The notes beneath the pieces were generated by a model that searched no databases, had not been told where the DNA came from, and saw nothing but the letters and a program-made list of their open reading frames with translations. Positions 41,130 through 62,271 of a DNA stretch of 64,000 nt are shown here, piece after piece. The translations under genes were made by a program, and so were the position numbers. Position 1 is the first letter of the stretch. Every line of letters starts with the position of its first letter. Source of the DNA: Syntrophaceae bacterium (GTDB taxonomy: Bacteria > Desulfobacterota > Syntrophia > Syntrophales > PHBD01); NCBI GenBank assembly GCA_013177825.1, contig JABLXX010000005.1:124001-188000 (forward strand), written 5' to 3'.

Positions 41130-41275
41130 GGACGGATGCCGAGGAAGAGGGGTGGAAAGCCCCCGCTGCCCCGCAGCCGTGAAGGGAACGAAAGCCCATG
41201 ATGCCACTGCCGCGGGTCAACCGTGGTGGGAAGGCGGGCAAGTAGGTCGCCCGAAGCCGGAAGACCGGTCCGTCC
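41130..41275 (+). promoter_or_regulatory. Cobalamin riboswitch upstream of btuC
   Basis: GGACGG at 41130 pairs with CCGTCC at 41270 as closing helix. Inside are GGTGGAAAGCCCCCGCTGCCCCGC, the core GATGCCACTG at about 41199-41208, GGGAAGGCGGGC and the B12-box-like AGCCGGAAGACCGG at 41254-41267. The GAGGGAGG ribosome binding site of btuC lies 10-20 nt after the aptamer and no U-run is seen, so control is probably at translation initiation. Confidence 0.9.
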
Positions 41276-42328: not shown

Positions 42329-43158
42329 TGCCCGCCATCCGTCTCGAAAAGGCAAGCTTCCGGTACGACCGCTCCTGGGTGCTGCGGCATGTCTCCCTGG
42401 ACGCGGAGCGCGGCGCATTCCTCGGGATTCTCGGTCCCAACGGATCCGGCAAGACGACGCTCCTGAATCTGATCGACGGAGTGATCGCCCCCCGGGAAGG
42501 GCGGGTCCTCCTGGAAGGAACCGATGCCGCGTCCCTGGACCGGAACGAACTGGCCCGGATGGTGGCGGTGGTTCCCCAGGACTCTCCGCTGATTTTCTCC
42601 TTTACCGTTCAGGAAATCGTTCTCATGGGCCGTGCCCCCCACCTGGGACGATGGCGGTTTGAGGGAAAACGGGACTTCGAGATCGCCAGGGACGTCATGG
42701 AAAGAACGGGGACTCTCCCGCTGGCGGGACGGCCCATGAGCGAACTCAGCGGCGGGGAGCGCCAGCGGGTCCTCATCGCCCGGGCCCTGGCCCAGGAACC
42801 GCGGATCCTCCTCCTGGACGAACCCACGTCCAACCTGGACATCCGCCATCAGAGCGCGTTCTTCGGCCTGGTGGCGGAGCTGAACCGGACACAGGGACTG
42901 ACGGTGGTTGCCGTCAGCCATGACATCAACCTGGCGTCCCTCTACTGCCGGCGGATCGTCCTCCTGAAGGACGGAGCCGTCTATGGCGAGGGAAGGCCCG
43001 AAGAGACCATTACGGAGGACAGCATTCGGAACGTCTTCGGGGTGCCCGTGCGAGTGGACAGCCATCCGCAGACAGGCAGGCCCCGTGTTACACCCATCTG
43101 CAACACACCCCCGGAGCGAGGAAGCCGGTTCAACGCCGGCGCTGCCCCGCAACTGTAA
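42328..43158 (+). CDS. btuD: Corrinoid ABC transporter ATPase
   Basis: 276 aa from ATG 42328. Walker A GPNGSGKTTLLN, Q-loop VVPQDSPLIFSFT, signature LSGGERQRVLIARALAQ, Walker B ILLLDEPTSNLD and H-loop AVSHDINLA are all intact. The last 17 residues are encoded by the aptamer of the next cobalamin riboswitch, with the TAA stop sitting in the conserved CAACTGTAAGCGG. These terminal residues are unlikely to be under normal protein selection. Confidence 0.94.
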   Translation: MPAIRLEKASFRYDRSWVLRHVSLDAERGAFLGILGPNGSGKTTLLNLIDGVIAPREGRVLLEGTDAASLDRNELARMVAVVPQDSPLIFSFTVQEIVLMGRAPHLGRWRFEGKRDFEIARDVMERTGTLPLAGRPMSELSGGERQRVLIARALAQEPRILLLDEPTSNLDIRHQSAFFGLVAELNRTQGLTVVAVSHDINLASLYCRRIVLLKDGAVYGEGRPEETITEDSIRNVFGVPVRVDSHPQTGRPRVTPICNTPPERGSRFNAGAAPQL

Positions 43159-43294
43159 GCGGAACGAAATCTGCAGAAGGCCACGGATCCGGAACATCCC
43201 GCCCCATATCGGGGACCGGGTTGATCAAGGGGGATCGGGAAGGCGCAGAGAGTAGGATCGAAAGAGGCCGCAAGCCAGGACACTCGACCGGGGG
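43108..43294 (+). promoter_or_regulatory. Cobalamin riboswitch upstream of the TonB-dependent receptor
   Basis: CCCCCGG at 43108 pairs with CCGGGGG at 43288 as closing helix. GGAAGCCGGTTCAACGCCGGCGCTGCCCCGCAACTGTAAGCGG is the classic aptamer core (43120-43162), followed by GGCCACGG, GGGAAGGCGC and CGCAAGCCAGGACAC. It begins inside the btuD coding sequence. The receptor ATG is 41 nt after the aptamer end. Confidence 0.9.
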
Positions 43295-50788: not shown

Positions 50789-52660
50789 TCAGGGCGCCAG
50801 CATCGCCCACACGATCAGCACCGTCAGGAGGAGACCCAGAAGCAGGCTTCCCAGGCCGAAGACGGCGGCAAACAGCTTCACGGCGATACCGGGGTGCTCC
50901 CGCTTGAGGCCTTCCAGTCTCTCTTCCGCCATCACCCGCTCATATTCCAGGGGACGCTGCTCCCTCATTTCATCAAGGGTATACGTGCCCGAGAAGATGA
51001 GACGATCCAGGGGAAACTTCGTCGGGATGAAGTGGGTGTTGAAAAAGTGGACCGTAAAGATGAACAGGGCCGCCAGAAGCGCTTCCTCGGAATGGACCAG
51101 GGTCGCAACGTTCAGGACCCAGCCGGGGACGATCCAGGATGACCACTCCGTCTTCCACAGGAGAAGGCCCGAGACGCCGATGGCGAACATGCCCCAGAAG
51201 ACCGCCCAGAAGTCGAACTTCTCCCAGTAGGTCCAGCGCTCGAACTTCGGCATGGGCCCCCGATCGAAGAACCAGAGGAACATGTCCCGGATGTCCCGGA
51301 TGTCCTTGAAGTTGGGAACCAGCGACTCGGGACCGAATATGCGGCCGACGAGGCCCTTCATACCCTGTCCTTTAGGGAAAAAGTAGATCAGGCCCTTGAT
51401 CGCTACAATCGTGACCAGGACGATGAGAACGAAGGCCGCCAGCCGGTGGAAGAACCCGGCCACCTCGTTGCTTCCCCACAGTCCCAGCAGGAATTTCGAC
51501 CAGAGAACGGAGGGATATTTGATGGGGAACCCCGTCAGGATGAGCGTGAAGAACGAAACAATCAGGATCACGTGCATCAGCCGCTCCCAGGGACGGAAGC
51601 GCTGGATCTGAACATGGCCGTCGGTTCCCGGGAAACACTGCTCCGGAAGGAGGCCTTCCTTTTCACGCCGGTGCTTCTCCCAGTATACCTTCCGCCACCA
51701 CAGGAAGGTGTGGGTCCAGAAGAAGAGGAACACCCCTCCCAGGAGAATCTCCATGAAAATGAAGGCCCAGTAGAGGGCGGGGTAATTCTCCCGGTCGTGG
51801 TAGTCCGGGTGGGCGCTGTAGGAAACGAAACGGGGATGGAATCCCTGGTGGCAGGCGCCGCAGTTCTTCACGAGGTTGGCGGGATAGAGGCTGGAGCCGG
51901 GATCCGTCTTGGGAAGGATGTCGTGCCCCTTATGACAGTCGGCGCATCCTGCAACCTGGGACGGATAGCCGGCGCCGCGCACCTTGCCGTGATAGGTCTG
52001 CTCGTAATAGGCGACAATGTTCGGCCGGAGCTTGTTCCGCTTCACAAGATCCGCGTCGGTGTGGCATTTCACGCACCGTTCCGTGTAATGCGTCCGCGCT
52101 TCCTTCGGATATGCCCCCCCGGCCGTATGAAAAGCCCGAGTGTCGTGAAGCCCGTGGCAGTCGGCGCAGGAGGCGGCGTCCTCGTTGCCCTTCAGGACGG
52201 CCTCGGCATGCCCTGCGGTGACATATTCGTCCCGGCTGTGGCATCGCGTGCAGTCCTCGACGATGGCCTTTTTGACGCTTCCCTCCGTTTTCCGGAGCCC
52301 GTGGATCTCCCCATGGCAGTCGGCACACTGGAAATTTCCCCGGAGGAAATGAACGTTCTTCCCGAACGCCCGGGCCACTTCGCCGTGGCAGTCGCCGCAG
52401 GCCACAGGCTTCGGCTTCTCCTCACCCCTCATGTGGCGGCCCGCGTCGGTGATCCCCTGGTGGCAGCTCGTGCAGCTGTTCGCCCCGTGGGCGGAACCGG
52501 CATATCGGGATTGGAACGGCTCGCTGCTGTGGCAGCCGAGACAGGCGGAGGACGAGACCGAGGCGTAACCGGGGACCGTCGTGAGGATCCAGGCCAGGCA
52601 TGCACCCGCCGCGAGCAGGAGAGCGCCATACCGACGCAGCCAGCGATATAATCGTTCCAT
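50789..52660 (-). CDS. Nine-heme cytochrome c fused to a cytochrome b561-like membrane domain
   Basis: 623 aa. N-terminal membrane/signal helix, then nine CxxCH sites between about residues 40 and 285 (CLGCH, CTSCH, CGDCH, CADCH, CTRCH, CADCH, CVKCH, CADCH, CGACH). The rest has about six membrane helices with histidines suited to two b hemes (RLMHVILIVSFF, FFHRLAAFVLIV, VHSEEALLAALFIFTVHFFNTHF). It would move electrons between the quinone pool and periplasmic cytochromes. Downstream partner genes encode rhodaneses and further multiheme cytochromes, so it looks like their membrane entry point. Confidence 0.85.
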   Translation of the reverse strand: MERLYRWLRRYGALLLAAGACLAWILTTVPGYASVSSSACLGCHSSEPFQSRYAGSAHGANSCTSCHQGITDAGRHMRGEEKPKPVACGDCHGEVARAFGKNVHFLRGNFQCADCHGEIHGLRKTEGSVKKAIVEDCTRCHSRDEYVTAGHAEAVLKGNEDAASCADCHGLHDTRAFHTAGGAYPKEARTHYTERCVKCHTDADLVKRNKLRPNIVAYYEQTYHGKVRGAGYPSQVAGCADCHKGHDILPKTDPGSSLYPANLVKNCGACHQGFHPRFVSYSAHPDYHDRENYPALYWAFIFMEILLGGVFLFFWTHTFLWWRKVYWEKHRREKEGLLPEQCFPGTDGHVQIQRFRPWERLMHVILIVSFFTLILTGFPIKYPSVLWSKFLLGLWGSNEVAGFFHRLAAFVLIVLVTIVAIKGLIYFFPKGQGMKGLVGRIFGPESLVPNFKDIRDIRDMFLWFFDRGPMPKFERWTYWEKFDFWAVFWGMFAIGVSGLLLWKTEWSSWIVPGWVLNVATLVHSEEALLAALFIFTVHFFNTHFIPTKFPLDRLIFSGTYTLDEMREQRPLEYERVMAEERLEGLKREHPGIAVKLFAAVFGLGSLLLGLLLTVLIVWAMLAP

Positions 52661-52681: not shown

Positions 52682-53485
52682 CTATCGTTTGCCCCGGGAT
52701 TTCGATTCCTTTTCCAGAAACGCCTGCCACTGCCGCATCCCTCCGAAAAGGCGCACAGCATCGAGCCCCTTTCTCCGCAGATACGACGACGCGAGAAACG
52801 ACCGCTCTCCGCAGTCGTCCACAACCAGAATCGGTTTGTCGAGGGGGATTTCCGGATAGCGCTCGTGAAGCTCCTCGAGGGGGATATTGAGGGCATCCCC
52901 GATATGGCCTTGCTTGTATGCATCGGTCATCCGGATGTCGAGGACCGTCAGGGGCCGTTTCTGCTCCAGCCAACCCTTGAGCACGGCTGGCCGGACCGCA
53001 GGCTGGGGCGTCCGGGGAATCCGCCCGGGCGACTCGATGGAGAACCCGGCCTCTTTCCAGGCAGCCAGGCCACCCTTGAGCACCAGGACCTTCGTGTAAC
53101 CAAGGGGCCGCGCAGCCGCGAGATACGGATCCGCCTGGGGGCATTCCCGAATCACGCAGTAGAGAACCAGCGGGCGATTCCGGTCCGGCGCCAGCCGGGG
53201 AAGCAGCACCGCCGGATCCCCAACGGACGGACAGATCGAACCCGGAATCCGGCTGTCCAGGCACTCGATCCGGCTCATGACGTTCAGCACGGTGGCGCCG
53301 CCCTCCTCCAGGAGACGGTCCAGGGCCGCCGGGTCGATGGTCGCAGGACCCGCACCGGTGGCGTCTGCCGCCCAGGCGGATCCCGACAGGAGAAGCAGAA
53401 GAGCCACCAGGACAAGGCCGCCCGTTTTGAGGCCCCGGGAGACCTGCACGGCGAGCCGCCCGGAACGGAGAATCCGGTTATTCAT
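52682..53485 (-). CDS. Exported tandem-rhodanese protein
   Basis: 267 aa from ATG 53485, overlapping the cytochrome stop by 8 bp. A signal segment (GLVLVALLLLLSGSAWA) precedes two rhodanese domains. Domain 1 has LVLYCVIRECPQAD with a candidate active cysteine; domain 2 has DIRMTDAYKQGHIGDALNIP and VVDDCGERSFLASSYLRRKG with the second cysteine. Both active-site loops keep a Cys, unlike many rhodanese pairs where one is inactive. It probably handles sulfane sulfur or selenium in the periplasm beside the cytochromes. Confidence 0.85.
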   Translation of the reverse strand: MNNRILRSGRLAVQVSRGLKTGGLVLVALLLLLSGSAWAADATGAGPATIDPAALDRLLEEGGATVLNVMSRIECLDSRIPGSICPSVGDPAVLLPRLAPDRNRPLVLYCVIRECPQADPYLAAARPLGYTKVLVLKGGLAAWKEAGFSIESPGRIPRTPQPAVRPAVLKGWLEQKRPLTVLDIRMTDAYKQGHIGDALNIPLEELHERYPEIPLDKPILVVDDCGERSFLASSYLRRKGLDAVRLFGGMRQWQAFLEKESKSRGKR

Positions 53486-55466
53486 GGGATGGAACACGGG
53501 TCAGCCCCCATTCGCTCATCTGGGGAACCGCATTGGGCTCCTTCAGGTTCGGGTAGTCGTCCTTGAGAAATCCCCTCGGATTCTTCATCTGCATCTTCGT
53601 GAAGAAAGGAGCCGCATCGTCGTGGCACTGGGTGCATCCCTTCGCTCCAAGCGTCTTCTTCTGCTTTAGGGGAGTGATGCCGTGCTCCACGGGATAGGAT
53701 TTGACGGCACCGACCAGCGGCTCCGCTGCAATCCCGCTTCCCTCGGAACGGTAGACACGGTCGGAGATGAAGACCACGTTCCGGAATCCTCTCTTCTGCA
53801 GCACCTGGATCATCCCGAGGATGTCGGCATCCGACACGGCGGCGGGGAGGCGAACGTTCTTTCCGTCTCCGCCATTCACCGCCAGGGACGTCAGACCCTG
53901 AACCCCGCCTGCGGCCCGCTGCACATGCCGGAGCGGAATCGGACGGATCTCTCCGCTCTTCATTCGCTCACCGAACCACGTCTTTAACTTCGGCACGTGG
54001 GACAGGTATTTCTCACGGGACACCTCTCCCGCCCGGCCCCTGGTCTGCCAGGGAAGCCACGGCGTCCGGGCCTGCCGGCCATAGTCCGCCGGGACAAGGG
54101 CCAGAGCGAAGCCGTCCGCCGTGAAGCCCGCCTCCCGGCCGGTGCTCATATCGAGAAGTGCCAGACCCCGGGCGGGCCGTTCCGTTGCGTGACAGCCGGT
54201 GCATGCGACAAGGGAAAAGTGGAAGGATCCCCTGGGGAAGTTCCTCTCGTGGGCGCTTTGCGGATCCCTGGCCGCCGCGGGCATTCCGGGCCGGGAAGGC
54301 TTGTACTTCCTGTCGTAATGGCATCCGGCGCAGGTCTTCATGTCCCGCCCGTCCAGGTCGTTCCGCACCGCCACCGCCGGATTCCATCCCTTGGCAATCT
54401 GGTGCCGGAGGCGTTCGGCCCGGGACTTTCCGGCCAAGGGGTGGCAGTCGCTGCAGCGGAGGCCGGCTGCGGCGTGCACGTCATGGGGAGCGTCGTTGAT
54501 CGTTCCGGTGTTCTTGGCGTCTCCCTCGCGGTGGCAGGCCAGGCAGTTGTCCCGCTGCACCGCCCGGGAAATGACGGATCCGCGAAGACGGCCGTCCTTT
54601 GTGAACAGGCTGCCGTCGGTCCAGGAATAGTCCACAACGGGCCGTTTCGTGAAGTTCCATGTCCCCCGGAGAAACGCCCGGGATTCCGATCCCGCTCCGG
54701 GAGCGGCATAAGTGAAGACGGCGCCGCTGACTTTCCCGAGGCCGCCGCCCGCCGTGGCGGCCCAGCGGTAATTCCGGCGGTTGATCTGCTCGATCCGTTC
54801 TTCGAACCGGTAGCCTTTCCGGTGGCAGATCAGGCAGTCCGCCTCCAGGACGCCGCTCTCCCGGAAATGGCTCCGGCCGTCCGGCGTCAGGTGGGAAGAG
54901 TAGTCGCCGTCGAGAGGGGCTTTCGCGGACCGCTCCGCCTCGATGTGGTTCGCAGTCAGGTTGCGGCGTCCGTCGGCCCGGCGTCCGTATTCGAGAGGAC
55001 CGCCGCCGGGATGGCACCAGCCGCAGGCCACGGACTCGACGCCCGCTTTCTGGTTCCGTTTCCCGTAACCGCCGATCCAGTCGTACGTGGAGAGGTCTAT
55101 TTCCCGGGCACTGCCGTTCGCCTTCCGGGCGACACGGCCGGCGGCGGCAAAGGGGGACCAGTTTCCGAACATGCCCGGGGAAAGGATCCAGGGCCGCTTT
55201 GGATCGTGGCGGTCGCTCATCTCATCGAAGCCCTGCTGGAAATGATAGCCCGACGTGATCACGTCGTAGTTGTGGCAGGCCCCGCAGGACTTCCTGGGGC
55301 TGTAAGGATCCGCCCGGTTCGAGAGCTGGGTGATCCGGTCGCCCTGCTCGTTCTTCAGCCAGACATCGGGATGGGCCCGGGCCGGCGCCGGGAGGACGAT
55401 CACCAGCAGACAAAGCAGTAGGGCCGCGATGACGGGAGAGACATGGGGTGATTTCGTTTGCTTCAT
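53478..55466 (-). CDS. Eight-heme periplasmic cytochrome c
   Basis: 662 aa from ATG 55466 with AGGGACCGGATC upstream. Signal peptide ending ...LPAPARA. Eight CxxCH sites: CGACH, CGWCH, CLICH, CLACH, CSDCH, CAGCH, CTGCH, CTQCH, widely spaced. A long heme-free stretch around residues 240-310 and a final KKTLGAKGCTQCHDDAAP region separate them. No close family recognised from sequence alone. Translation is coupled to the tandem rhodanese. Confidence 0.85.
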   Translation of the reverse strand: MKQTKSPHVSPVIAALLLCLLVIVLPAPARAHPDVWLKNEQGDRITQLSNRADPYSPRKSCGACHNYDVITSGYHFQQGFDEMSDRHDPKRPWILSPGMFGNWSPFAAAGRVARKANGSAREIDLSTYDWIGGYGKRNQKAGVESVACGWCHPGGGPLEYGRRADGRRNLTANHIEAERSAKAPLDGDYSSHLTPDGRSHFRESGVLEADCLICHRKGYRFEERIEQINRRNYRWAATAGGGLGKVSGAVFTYAAPGAGSESRAFLRGTWNFTKRPVVDYSWTDGSLFTKDGRLRGSVISRAVQRDNCLACHREGDAKNTGTINDAPHDVHAAAGLRCSDCHPLAGKSRAERLRHQIAKGWNPAVAVRNDLDGRDMKTCAGCHYDRKYKPSRPGMPAAARDPQSAHERNFPRGSFHFSLVACTGCHATERPARGLALLDMSTGREAGFTADGFALALVPADYGRQARTPWLPWQTRGRAGEVSREKYLSHVPKLKTWFGERMKSGEIRPIPLRHVQRAAGGVQGLTSLAVNGGDGKNVRLPAAVSDADILGMIQVLQKRGFRNVVFISDRVYRSEGSGIAAEPLVGAVKSYPVEHGITPLKQKKTLGAKGCTQCHDDAAPFFTKMQMKNPRGFLKDDYPNLKEPNAVPQMSEWGLTRVPSHE

Positions 55467-55729: not shown

Positions 55730-56620
55730 CTAGGGCTCCATGGGTGCGGCCGAATCCTTTGCCCACTCCATGAAGGAGCCGTCATAGATCTTCACATCCC
55801 GGTAACCCAGCCAGGACGACATGACAAAGGCCCAGGACGTGCACGTCTTCCCGGTGTCGCAATAGAGGATGATCTCCCTGCCGGGATCCGTCCCGGCTGC
55901 TTTCGAGGCCAGGGCGGCGAGGGCATCCTTCGACTTGTAGAGTCCCTCCGGCGTGTAGAGAGCGCTCACGGGCAGGTTGACGGCTCCCTTGATGCGTCCC
56001 GTCTTCGGAACGAAGGGCAGCTTTTCCTTGCCTTCAAAGGCCGCCGGAGCGCGGACGTCGACGATCACGGCCTTTCCCAGCCTGTCTGCCACATAGGCCT
56101 TGGAAACGAACAGTCCCTTGTTCATCTTTCCCTTGAAAGGCCTGGCTTTGGGTCTGACCATGTCCTGGGAAAGAGCCTTCTTTTCCTTGACCCATTTCTC
56201 CTGGCCGCCGTCCAGGATCGCCACCTGGTCGACACCCATGTACTTCAGGGTCCAGGCCACGCGGGTCATGTCGAAGCGCGCCGGGGGAGGAGCCGTATTG
56301 CCGATCAGCACGACCCAGGAATCCGCAGCGATTCCCGCTCCGCCGATGGCGTCCGCCAGGTCGTCCGCCGGAGGCAACTCGTTCAGGAGATCCCCTTTCT
56401 TGATTGCCCAGGTCCCGTAAAAGACGTTCACCGCCCCTGGGATGTGGCCTGCCTTGTAATCCTCTACCTTCCGGACGTCTACCATGACCAGTTTCGCATT
56501 CCCCAGGTTCTTCTCCAGCCAGTCCGTGGAGACGACGGGATCCAGAACCTGCGCCCAGGCCGCCAGGGGCAGCAGCAGCGCTGCCATCACGACCGCCAAC
56601 AGCATGCTCCTTCGCTTCAT
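55730..56620 (-). CDS. Exported tandem-rhodanese sulfurtransferase (ExtH-like)
   Basis: 296 aa from ATG 56620 with GGAGGATAACCG upstream. Signal peptide MKRRSMLLAVVMAALLLPLAAWA, no lipobox. Domain 1 (residues about 30-155) has VDVRKVEDYKAGHIPGAVN but GNTAPPP in place of the active loop, so it is inactive. Domain 2 carries ILYCDTGKTCTSWAFVMSSWLGY with a catalytic Cys. It sits 23 bp after the selenoprotein-like cytochrome, as ExtH-type rhodaneses sit with ExtKL cytochromes; it may carry sulfane sulfur or selenium. Confidence 0.85.
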   Translation of the reverse strand: MKRRSMLLAVVMAALLLPLAAWAQVLDPVVSTDWLEKNLGNAKLVMVDVRKVEDYKAGHIPGAVNVFYGTWAIKKGDLLNELPPADDLADAIGGAGIAADSWVVLIGNTAPPPARFDMTRVAWTLKYMGVDQVAILDGGQEKWVKEKKALSQDMVRPKARPFKGKMNKGLFVSKAYVADRLGKAVIVDVRAPAAFEGKEKLPFVPKTGRIKGAVNLPVSALYTPEGLYKSKDALAALASKAAGTDPGREIILYCDTGKTCTSWAFVMSSWLGYRDVKIYDGSFMEWAKDSAAPMEP

Positions 56621-56643: not shown

Positions 56644-57885
56644 TTACCGCGTGATCGGCCTGATCGGACAGATCAGCCTGCTGTTCGCCGTGGAGCCGTC
56701 CCTGATGAGCTGTTCCCTGGTCAGGAATCCCGTTTTCTCCACATGGCAGGTATCGCAATTCCGGGTCCGGTCCGTCCGCTTCCGGATGTTGTGGACCGGG
56801 CTGTCCCAGTAGTTGGGAAGCGCATCGAAATGCTCCATTTTGATGCCTGCGGACGCGAATGTATCGCGCACGGCGGGAACCAGCCGCAGTGTCGTGAGGC
56901 TTTTTCCGTCCCTGGGATTGAGGCCCAGACGGAAACCGGCGGACGACTTGGAGCCGGGTCCGAGGTGGCAGCCGCTGCAGTCCCGGTACTGGCCCGAGGA
57001 GTGGCATCCGTAGCAGCTCACCTTGTCCTTGTGTCCCTCGTGGGCCGCCCGGACATAGAGCTTCGGACTCGTCATCTGCCTGTGGCAGCTGATGCAGGCA
57101 GGCCGGTCCTTCACCGCCTGCTTCGACTGATAGGCCGTACCGTCTCCGTGCATCTCCGCCTTCCGGTGGCAGTCCATGCACATCATGCCCTTCTGGTAAT
57201 GCACGTCCGGGGAGCCTCCGAATTCTCCGGTAAACTCCGGGTACACGCGGCCGCCGTGGCAGAAGGCACAGGTTTTTCCCTCGTCCTTCTTGACGAACTT
57301 GTGTCCCCGGATCAGCCCCAGGCCGATGCCGGACACAGGCGGAGACTTGACATGGCAGTCTCCGCAGGAGGCATGGCAGCTCCGGCACGATTTTTCAAAG
57401 ACCTTCTCCTCGAAGGCCTTGAATTCGGACGGCGAGAAACGGGGCCGGACACCCTCCCGCTGGCCCGCCGTGGTATAGTGGAGAGACTTGCCGTAGGTCT
57501 CCACGATCTTCTTGTGGCACATGGCACACTTCTGGAGATTGTCCGACGGCCTCCGGACCAGCCCCTTGTGGGCCTTGTCTTTGGAGACGATGCTGTCGTC
57601 ACCCTGGTGGCAAAGCTTGCAGGGGAGCTTCAGGTGGACGTCCTTCCCGAGCAGGTCTTTGTCCACCACGTATCCTTTGTAATACTCATCCGCCTTGACC
57701 GGCGGAGGCGCCCCGGCTCACCCTTCCCCTTCGGCCCCCATTGCGGGAGGTTTCACCATGGCCTTCATGATCGATGCATTGGTATGACAGGTGACGCAGG
57801 AGCTGGTCTGAGCGGCGTCTGCGGCCAGGACCATGAGAAAAAAAAGCGGAAGGACGATTGGAAACGGTCTGAAAAGCCATCGCAT
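56644..57885 (-). CDS. Eleven-heme cytochrome c with in-frame UGA, probable selenoprotein (ExtKL-like)
   Basis: 414 codons from ATG 57885, with GAGGGT upstream, to the stop at 56644, uninterrupted except for codon 56, TGA at 57720-57718. A signal peptide (MRWLFRPFPIVLPLFFLMVL...DAAQ) and the first heme site CVTCH (30-34) lie before the TGA; ten further CxxCH sites follow (CKLCH, CAMCH, CRSCH, CGDCH, CAFCH, CMDCH, CISCH, CYGCH, CSGCH, CDTCH). A SECIS-like hairpin follows the TGA at the right distance. Without recoding the second part would lack any export signal. I recall the Geobacter ExtKL family as a selenoprotein cytochrome of this kind. A plain nonsense mutation is the alternative. Confidence 0.8.
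57689..57706 (-). promoter_or_regulatory. SECIS-like hairpin after the in-frame UGA
   Basis: Seventeen nt after the TGA, TCCGCC (57706-57701) pairs with GGCGGA (57694-57689) around the loop GGTCAA. Bacterial SECIS elements have a short stem with a G or GGU at the start of the loop about this far from the UGA; the E. coli fdhF loop is AGGUCU. Confidence 0.65.
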
Positions 57886-59916: not shown

Positions 59917-61485
59917 ATGATGAAGCGTGAAGACACGGAAGCGGCAGCGACAAAGGGCGTGAGCAGGCGTTCGGTTCTCAAAGGCGCCGTAGCGATGGGA
60001 GCGGCGGCGGCCAGCGGCCTCGCCCTCAACATGGGGGTCCCCGGGACGGCGGAAGCCATGATCAAGAAACTCCCGACCAAGTGGGACGAGACATGGGACG
60101 TAGTCATTATCGGTTCCGGGTTCGCGGGACTGGCAGCGGCAGCCGAGGCGGCGGGAAAGGGCGCGAAGGTCGTCGTCCTGGAGAAGATGCCCACGTACGG
60201 TGGAAATTCCATCATCAACGGCGGCGTGTATGCCGCCTGGGACAGCGAGTTCCATTATCGCCAGAAACTGAACCTCGGGGACGACAGCCCGAAGCAGCAC
60301 ATCAACGACACGTTGAAGGGCGGCGACTACTACAGCATTCCTGAACTGGTGGAGGTCATGGCCAACGGCGCCGCGGGCGCCCTCAACTGGATGATCGACG
60401 AAGGCGGCGCCAAGATCCGCCCGACGGTCACCCGTGCCGGCGGCCACACGGCCTATCGGACCCATTCGGCCGTGGCCGGTGTGGGGCGCGAGTACACCGA
60501 GGCGCTTCGGAAGATCGCCGAGAAGCGAGGCGCCAAGACCGTTCTGAACTCCGAAGTCACCTGGATCTGGCGGAAAGATGCCGACCCGAAGAGCCCGGTC
60601 CTCGGCGTGGAGGTGAAACGGGGCCGGCGGACCCTCAACATCAAGGCCGCCAAGGCCCTCATCCTCGCCTCCGGCGGATTCAGCCGGGACATCAAGATGC
60701 GGATGGCCCACAATCCGCGGCTGGTGCCCGCCTTCGGCTGTACGAACCACCCGGGGGCGACTGGCGAGATGATTCGTTTCGCCCAGTCCATCGGCGCCGA
60801 CACCCTGCAGATGAACTTCATTCAGCTCTATCCCTTCGCCGAGCCGGAGACGAGCATCCTCGACACACCGGCCGTGTATCCCTTCAACGGCCCGGGGTAC
60901 GGCATCGTCTATGTGAACAAGCTGGGAAAGCGCTTCGTCAACGAGCTGGAGCGCCGGGACGTCTGCGCCTTCGCCCAGATCAACCTGGGAGCAAACATGA
61001 AGCCCACCTGGAGCATCTTCAACCACGCCATGATCCTCAAGATGGGCGGCTCCTACGAGGAAGTGGAAGCGGGCCTGAAGAAAGGCCGGTTCATCAAGGC
61101 CGATTCAATCGCCGAGATGGCCGGCAAGCTCGGCATTCCGGCGGACGCCCTGGTGAAGACCATCGAGGACCACAACCGTTATATCGAGCAGGGCAAGGAT
61201 CCCGACTTCAACAAGCCCATCACGAAGGTCATGATCCCCCTGGTCGAGGGCCCCTTCTACTCCGTCTCCCAGTGGCCGGCGGTGCATCACTGCATGGGGG
61301 GCATCCGGATCAACCCGAACGCCCAGGTCATCGACGTCTTCGGCGCCGTGATCCCGAAGCTCTATGCGGCCGGCGAAGTCGCCGGCGGCGTCCACGGGTC
61401 GAACCGCCTGGGCAGCAATGCCATTCCCGATGCCGTGTCCTTCGGCCGCGTGGCGGGCACCAATGCCGCCAAGGAAAGGGCGTAA
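59917..61485 (+). CDS. Tat-exported flavocytochrome c-type fumarate reductase-like flavoprotein
   Basis: 522 aa from ATG 59917 with AGGAGG 6 nt upstream. Tat signal GVSRRSVLKGAVAMGAAAASG. FAD-binding VVIIGSGFAGLAAAAEAAGKGAKVVVLEKMPTYGGNS, then a capping domain and a C-terminal GGVHGSNRLGSNAIPDAVSFGRVAG. KRFVNELE and WPAVHHCMGGI carry residues at the positions of the catalytic Arg and His of fumarate reductase FccA. It has no heme site, so electrons should come from the 7-heme protein at 61558. Fumarate, methacrylate, urocanate or another enoate are possible substrates. Confidence 0.83.
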   Translation: MMKREDTEAAATKGVSRRSVLKGAVAMGAAAASGLALNMGVPGTAEAMIKKLPTKWDETWDVVIIGSGFAGLAAAAEAAGKGAKVVVLEKMPTYGGNSIINGGVYAAWDSEFHYRQKLNLGDDSPKQHINDTLKGGDYYSIPELVEVMANGAAGALNWMIDEGGAKIRPTVTRAGGHTAYRTHSAVAGVGREYTEALRKIAEKRGAKTVLNSEVTWIWRKDADPKSPVLGVEVKRGRRTLNIKAAKALILASGGFSRDIKMRMAHNPRLVPAFGCTNHPGATGEMIRFAQSIGADTLQMNFIQLYPFAEPETSILDTPAVYPFNGPGYGIVYVNKLGKRFVNELERRDVCAFAQINLGANMKPTWSIFNHAMILKMGGSYEEVEAGLKKGRFIKADSIAEMAGKLGIPADALVKTIEDHNRYIEQGKDPDFNKPITKVMIPLVEGPFYSVSQWPAVHHCMGGIRINPNAQVIDVFGAVIPKLYAAGEVAGGVHGSNRLGSNAIPDAVSFGRVAGTNAAKERA

Positions 61486-61557: not shown

Positions 61558-62271
61558 ATGAAGAAGAGATATTTCCTTTTGTTCCTGTTGCCGGCGCTCC
61601 TGGCGGTTTTCTTCACGCTTCCCGGAGACAGGGCGGACGGAGCGGCACAGAAGGCGGGGGTCTCGTGCAGTTCCTGCCACGCCGACCTGAAGGCGGTCGT
61701 CTCCAAGACCCATCCCCCCGTGACGGGGAACAACCTGGCCGCCTGCCTCCAGTGCCACGCCCCCGACATGGGCGGCGAGGCGAAGAAGAATCCATTCTCC
61801 GTCAGGATCCACGCCGGTCACATTCCTCCGAAGGGCAGCCTCGACTGCCTGACCTGCCACACCTGGACGCCCGGCAAGAGCTTCGGTCTGGCCGGCATGA
61901 AGGAGAGCTGGGGCGCTCCGTCCAAGGAAGACATGGACCTGCTCAAGGAGATTTACGGCACGCTCGCCAAGGAGGAATTCACGGCCAAGCTCCATGCCAA
62001 CAAGGGCGTGGCCTGTGCGAGCTGTCACGGCAAGGCGCTGCCCAAGCCGGATGACACGGTCGAAAACGCCCGCTGCCTGACCTGTCACGGTCCGCTGGAG
62101 AAACTGGCAAAGAAGACGGAGCCCAAGGACTTTGCGGACAGGAACCCCCACAAGTCCCACCTGGGGGAAATCGCGTGCACCGTCTGCCACAAGGCCCACG
62201 GTCCGTCCAAAGTGTACTGCCTCGACTGTCACACGAAATTCCAGATGAAGATCCCCGGGCAGGCAAAATGA
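61558..62271 (+). CDS. Seven-heme periplasmic cytochrome c
   Basis: 237 aa from ATG 61558 with CAAGGAAGGTCACCC upstream. Signal peptide MKKRYFLLFLLPALLAVFFTLPGDRA. Seven CxxCH sites: CSSCH, CLQCH, CLTCH, CASCH, CLTCH, CTVCH, CLDCH. Positions suggest a tetraheme flavocytochrome-like module extended by three hemes. As the partner of the preceding flavoprotein it would donate electrons from the quinol side. Confidence 0.85.
   Translation: MKKRYFLLFLLPALLAVFFTLPGDRADGAAQKAGVSCSSCHADLKAVVSKTHPPVTGNNLAACLQCHAPDMGGEAKKNPFSVRIHAGHIPPKGSLDCLTCHTWTPGKSFGLAGMKESWGAPSKEDMDLLKEIYGTLAKEEFTAKLHANKGVACASCHGKALPKPDDTVENARCLTCHGPLEKLAKKTEPKDFADRNPHKSHLGEIACTVCHKAHGPSKVYCLDCHTKFQMKIPGQAK

Follow-up and report, generated by a model that had tools for sequence, protein, structure and literature searches.

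Comparative analysis of the sequence indicates that UGA codon 56 of a multiheme cytochrome gene is almost certainly recoded to selenocysteine (Sec) by the SelABCD machinery, directed by a hairpin downstream of the codon. The gene lies on the minus strand of the window, by which we mean the whole 64-kb stretch of DNA (64,000 nucleotides) analyzed here. Taken as a whole, the data are best explained by a Sec-recoded, secreted eleven-heme cytochrome that works with a periplasmic rhodanese, an overall reading in which we have high confidence. The eleven-heme cytochromes to which this protein belongs form a deeply diverged selenoprotein family within the former Deltaproteobacteria.

Rereading the gene bore out the original prediction as to frame, signal peptide, heme sites, and TGA. 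A single frame runs through 413 codons plus a stop (414 codons), and its sole in-frame TGA is codon 56. A signal peptide and a CVTCH site precede this codon and ten CxxCH sites follow it, which places the UGA between hemes 1 and 2 of a total of 11. With its many CxxCH sites and its signal peptide, the product has the features of a multiheme c-type cytochrome, and the signal peptide suggests that it is secreted. The expectation that automatic annotation would truncate the gene also proved correct, in that the standard ORF list yields only a 341-aa ORF with a GTG start (Table 1). Automatic gene calls in such genes would tend to leave out heme 1 and the Sec together with the signal peptide. In the eleven-heme cytochrome, Pfam recognizes nothing beyond generic cytochrome c domains, the family matched no NCBIfam model above its cut-off, and Rfam, run over the window with its gathering thresholds, placed no family at the cytochrome gene.

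Elsewhere in the window we observed two cobalamin riboswitches less than 2 kb apart on the plus strand (41143-41265 and 43118-43285). Also on the plus strand, a seven-heme protein with cytochrome c3-like domains (61570-62271) adjoins a flavocytochrome c (59917-61485); these two are perhaps a separate periplasmic reductase pair.

Table 1. Features of the cytochrome gene and its operon (window coordinates)
Feature	Position	Strand	Basis or remarks
11-heme c-type cytochrome with one predicted Sec, 413 aa	56644..57885	-	operon gene 1
Signal peptide, ~25 codons, cleavage near AADAA	57811..57885	-	by eye from translation
UGA codon 56, predicted to be read as selenocysteine, motif GEGUAGAPPPV	57718..57720	-	UGA in 101/113 homologues
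SECIS hairpin TCCGCC-GGTCAA-GGCGGA	57689..57706	-	folding, synonymous-codon null, compensatory changes
341-aa GTG-start ORF	56644..57669	-	standard ORF list; without signal peptide, heme 1, and Sec
Secreted two-domain rhodanese, conserved partner	55730..56620	-	PF00581, two stretches; CDTGKT active-site loop in second domain
Eight-heme c-type cytochrome, operon member	53478..55466	-	8 CxxCH; order kept in many Syntrophales
Second two-domain rhodanese, operon member	52682..53497	-	PF00581, two stretches; conserved order
Fusion of nine-heme cytochrome c and cytochrome b561-type membrane domain	50789..52660	-	PF01292, cytochrome c domains, 9 CxxCH

Conservation of the UGA codon and of the selenocysteine machinery

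How widely is the UGA conserved? Of 155 genomes in the class, 65 encode a homologue of the cytochrome, and a single TGA is present in nearly every homologue of full length. When the phylum was searched with a profile, 48 of 395 genomes were positive, again nearly always with one TGA, and 48 of 258 genomes of a further class also carry a homologue. Alignment of 113 distinct sequences across codon 56, the comparison by which the original prediction proposed to check itself, revealed UGA in 101, Tyr in nine, and Cys, Ala, and Trp in one each. The site mostly has the motif G-x-G-U-[A/G]-G, which takes the form GEGUAGAPPPV in the main clade, GxGUGGxVAPLEP in the second clade, and AGUGVSAPQ in a small third group of homologues.

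As the window was taken from a genome assembly, the TGA might be a sequencing error or an inactivating mutation in a pseudogene. However, the same TGA recurs in ~100 other genomes, in frames that are intact and that keep CxxCH sites on both sides. This conservation rules out the sequencing error that the original prediction had named as a threat to its reading, and we regard error or pseudogene formation as a practically negligible explanation.

The sequences with a sense codon at the site are informative in their own right. All nine Tyr sequences belong to one genus-level group in which the cytochrome is fused to rhodanese, and the sole Cys member (L240) is a cytochrome-rhodanese fusion like those of the Tyr group. 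On a quick tree in which L041, L065, and L161 were the only non-Sec sequences, these three required three separate changes. The genome of the Ala member (L065) is 74% complete and yielded neither selA nor SelB above the cut-off, which is weak evidence because the genome is incomplete; the genome of the Trp member L073 has both selA and selB. The Tyr, Ala, and Trp members show that some lineages can do without Sec. A residue other than Cys or Sec throughout the homologues was to have spoken against recoding, and this objection applies to 11 exceptions only (9 Tyr, 1 Ala, and 1 Trp) and fails for the family.

An apparent replacement by His or Phe in L071 and L072 was rejected as an alignment offset, and both sequences have UGA at the site. 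These two sequences are a divergent second paralogue, ~47% identical to the window protein and with the motif G[HF]GU[AT]GPPP, which accompanies the main copy in two genomes; two rhodaneses follow L071. In a further variant (L058, L061, and L063), proteins of ~610 aa carry extra N-terminal hemes ahead of the Sec cytochrome, for 17 CxxCH in total.

The genes for Sec insertion, whose presence the original prediction took to be essential, are all found in the source genome: selC, encoding a tRNA-Sec with the anticodon TCA, and genes for SelA (606 bits), SelB (363 bits), and SelD (392 bits). The selD gene (L128; G000:C2:171816-172742) has an in-frame TGA of its own, and SelD is therefore probably a selenoprotein too. 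Across the class, selA was seen in most UGA-bearing genomes; the exceptions (G102, G113, and G114) are 69 to 88% complete, and each has SelB above the cut-off.

The hairpin downstream of the UGA

The sequence after the TGA reads TGAGCCGGGGCGCC-TCCGCC-GGTCAA-GGCGGA. Its stem starts 11 nt downstream of the TGA, and its loop starts at 17 nt. A loop that starts 17 nt past the UGA is the usual geometry of a bacterial SECIS element, and the hairpin, just downstream of the UGA and with G in its loop, has the form expected of one. The original prediction had placed the stem itself at 17 nt; the hairpin stands, and the distance of 17 nt belongs to the loop.

Since the hairpin region is coding, resampling of synonymous codons is the right null model. 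In the main clade (51 sequences), a mean of 5.55 of 6 pairs was formed in the fixed register versus 3.03 under synonymous resampling, and the second clade gave 5.78 of 6 pairs versus 3.37. Pairing was lower in shifted registers than in the fixed one. When the 42 nt that follow the TGA were folded in 79 genes, the energy had a mean z of -1.11 relative to synonymous versions, and four control windows downstream gave z values of about 0 in the same test. At codon +4, 48 of 51 sequences use CCT, a codon that makes up 13% of Pro codons in these genes.

Compensatory changes were observed in the stem. In an exchange of the two arms, GGCTCC-GTT-GGAGCC became GGAGCC-GTT-GGCTCC, and the protein changed from APLEP to EPLAP; EPLAP (GAGCCG-TTG-GCTCC) is found in L175, L176, L177, and L182, and APLEP (GCTCCG-TTG-GAGCC) is found in some other sequences. 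Compensated stems elsewhere read TCCGGC/GCCGGA (L037) and GGCCCC/GGGGCC (L231). In the Tyr and Cys members, which have no UGA, the hairpin register is down to 3 to 4 of 6 pairs; among UGA members of the same class, 17 of 19 have 6 of 6 pairs and the other two have five. The hairpin is still complete in the Ala and Trp members, apparently as a relic that a recent loss has left behind.

Could the UGA instead be read through without Sec insertion, for example by a near-cognate tRNA-Trp, so that Trp is the native residue, as in the homologue (L041/L073) with TGG at the site? That member is nested among UGA members and carries the intact hairpin as a relic. Moreover, readthrough would have no need of a covarying hairpin at SECIS distance, nor does it fit the decay of this hairpin in the Tyr and Cys members or the existence of a Cys relative. 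We consider readthrough as Trp very improbable. Recoding to Sec is favored because the machinery, the conserved UGA, the hairpin at a fixed distance, the compensatory changes, and the decay in Tyr and Cys members all point to it. With selABCD present, UGA in the large majority of homologues, one Cys relative, and a covarying SECIS, the central claim of the original prediction, that the gene encodes a recoded selenoprotein, is strongly supported.

The rhodanese partner and a proposed function

The next gene starts 23 nt downstream of the cytochrome and encodes a rhodanese. A rhodanese on the same strand, close by or fused, was found in 55 of 61 loci (which include a few genes counted from two collections) across deep divergence, mostly as the very next gene. 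In many Syntrophales the genes that come after this pair encode, in conserved order, a cytochrome of the eight-heme type, another rhodanese, and a b/c cytochrome fusion. In the window the product of the last gene, the b561-type/nine-heme fusion, is the likely quinone link. In one class, the cytochrome and the rhodanese are a single protein of ~710 aa. Among natural fusions of the eleven-heme cytochrome with two C-terminal rhodanese domains (L213-L240, L161, and L170) there are forms with Sec, with Tyr, and with Cys. In L169, the rhodanese-like domains are N-terminal. Our literature search found no multiheme selenoprotein (Sec multiheme cytochrome) partnered with a rhodanese.

The rhodanese next door or fused in so many loci suggests redox chemistry on sulfane sulfur or, alternatively, on a selenium oxyanion. 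In general terms, we favor sulfur or chalcogen chemistry with the rhodanese, with moderate confidence. The detailed route that we propose, from rhodanese to Sec to heme wire to quinone pool, is more tentative. The cytochrome would partner the periplasmic two-domain rhodanese, which would hand over, in persulfide form, sulfane sulfur or a chalcogen species. Between hemes 1 and 2 the chain is predicted to form a loop rich in glycine, and the Sec on this loop might accept the chalcogen as a selenenylsulfide or might bind it at a heme that lacks a conserved His partner. Electrons would then pass between the heme wire and the quinone pool via the downstream b/c-type membrane cytochrome, and either reduction or oxidation could result. 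It is conceivable, if short of probable, that we are dealing with a phylum-wide family of Sec-heme chalcogen enzymes that act with rhodanese, in which Sec is replaced by Tyr, Ala, or Trp and nearly never by Cys and in which the catalytic centre is of a previously undescribed kind.

A different role for the Sec would be that of an axial heme ligand that tunes electron transfer and is not a catalytic nucleophile, the protein being a mere electron conduit. The homologue alignment revealed nine His residues outside CxxCH that are invariant or nearly so; with nine such residues for 11 hemes, two hemes are left without a conserved His partner, which is in keeping with a ligand role. However, the Ala, Trp, and Tyr members would then need no ligand or a weak one, and the linkage to rhodanese suggests catalysis on a substrate. 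A ligand role seems unlikely to us, and a catalytic Sec remains our tentative preference. An AlphaFold model of the protein had a mean pLDDT of 70.6, with values below 50 at residues 48 to 62 (the Sec loop), too weak to place the Sec. Foldseek returned no match to this model at E < 0.001. The best VIA-align match was 1sp3, with a Z of 7.6 that is within the range of common arrangements and that was obtained from a poor input model, and a sequence search of the PDB gave weak matches in the heme region only.

Comparison with known selenoproteins and related systems

A 2026 review lists 119 selenoprotein families or subfamilies, and its heme-related entries are limited to ExtKL, the GSU2204 barrel, and the octaheme family (PMC13188914). 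None of the 119 fits the eleven-heme cytochrome. The family is probably new to the catalogues that we checked, the families of Haft and Tolstoy 2025 being compared as listed in the review. The building of such catalogues leans on Sec/Cys pairs, and according to the deep-Sep authors, filtering may remove selenoproteins that have no Cys homologues (PMC12013277). That Cys members are so rare would explain why the family is missing. Its inclusion adds a large family to the selenoprotein catalogue and connects selenium both with rhodanese and with electron transfer by multiheme proteins in mostly uncultured anaerobes. One genome that carries the cytochrome gene with its TGA (G035) appears to be that of Syntrophus aciditrophicus, a cultured model, and the Sec claim is therefore directly testable. 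A 2006 survey gave 19 selenoproteins for S. aciditrophicus, with no cytochrome among them (PMC1794560).

ExtKL of Geobacter (NF040886; GSU2937-2936) is a predicted Sec cytochrome (PMC5877670, PMC13188914). Like the window protein, it is a deltaproteobacterial multiheme cytochrome c with one Sec, and its cluster also contains a rhodanese (ExtH), other cytochromes, and a b-type cytochrome. It differs in having 5 hemes and in carrying its Sec in AGHxIPDGUPTPNR in the C-terminal half, whereas in the eleven-heme family the motif that holds the Sec, GxGU[AG]G, follows heme 1. The profile overlap between the two is 23 columns only, and at E 0.001 none of 34 members matched NF040886 (cut-off, 250 bits). 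Searched for across the phylum, ExtKL was found in other lineages and in none of the Syntrophales genomes listed. We therefore rejected membership in ExtKL: the likeness that the original prediction drew is one of kind only, as the position of the Sec, the number of hemes, and the HMM family all differ.

The operon may nevertheless be a selenite/tellurite reduction system like the Geobacter ext cluster, with the cytochrome in the ExtKL role. The parts list is similar (Sec cytochrome, rhodanese, other multiheme cytochromes, and b-type cytochrome), the rhodanese matches ExtH weakly (69 bits versus a cut-off of 200), and loss of extI in G. sulfurreducens impairs selenite and tellurite reduction (PMC5877670). 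On the other hand, no ext model, those for ExtH/M/N/O included, scored above its cut-off for the operon, ExtKL has another Sec site and another heme number, and the rhodanese partner would fit sulfur acceptors or donors equally well. We find an ext-like system doubtful and keep to the broader reading of sulfur or chalcogen chemistry.

The octaheme tetrathionate reductases (OTR; TIGR04315) show some likeness to the eleven-heme family: in a profile comparison their heme 1 onward aligns with its hemes 3 onward, and some members also bear Sec. They differ in having 8 hemes versus 11 CxxCH in the window protein. The profile match to TIGR04315 has an E of 1.5e-14 over 188 columns, a type of score that heme motifs inflate. 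The observations that bear on a possible heme core in common with the HAO/OTR-like multiheme superfamily are this profile match and the weak fold match to 1sp3 (Z of 7.6), an OTR-type structure, from the poor model. The TIGR04315 cut-off of 375 bits was not reached, and one of 34 members matched at all (E 1.2e-4). A Sec site common to both was rejected: the OTR motif NNF[UC]I lies between OTR hemes 1 and 2, and because these align with hemes 3 and 4 of the eleven-heme family, the Sec/Cys site of OTR is a different one. As a separate observation, which concerns octaheme cytochromes such as L195, L198, L199, L203, L205, L208, L209, L211, and L212, ~20 of 68 TIGR04315 matches in the phylum have one in-frame TGA. 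Where read, this TGA falls within NNF[U/C]I or NSFUI, after heme 1 and before heme 2, and is aligned with Cys in siblings, a classic Sec/Cys pair. Octaheme selenoproteins are listed only as GenBank annotated (PMC13188914).

The GSU2204 family (NF041027) is likewise a listed selenoprotein family with a heme motif (CXXCH) (PMC13188914), but it is an outer-membrane barrel of the MtrB/PioB type, to which the window protein has no match. The rhodanese partner gene and the fused domains belong with the thiosulfate/mercaptopyruvate sulfurtransferases (PF00581).
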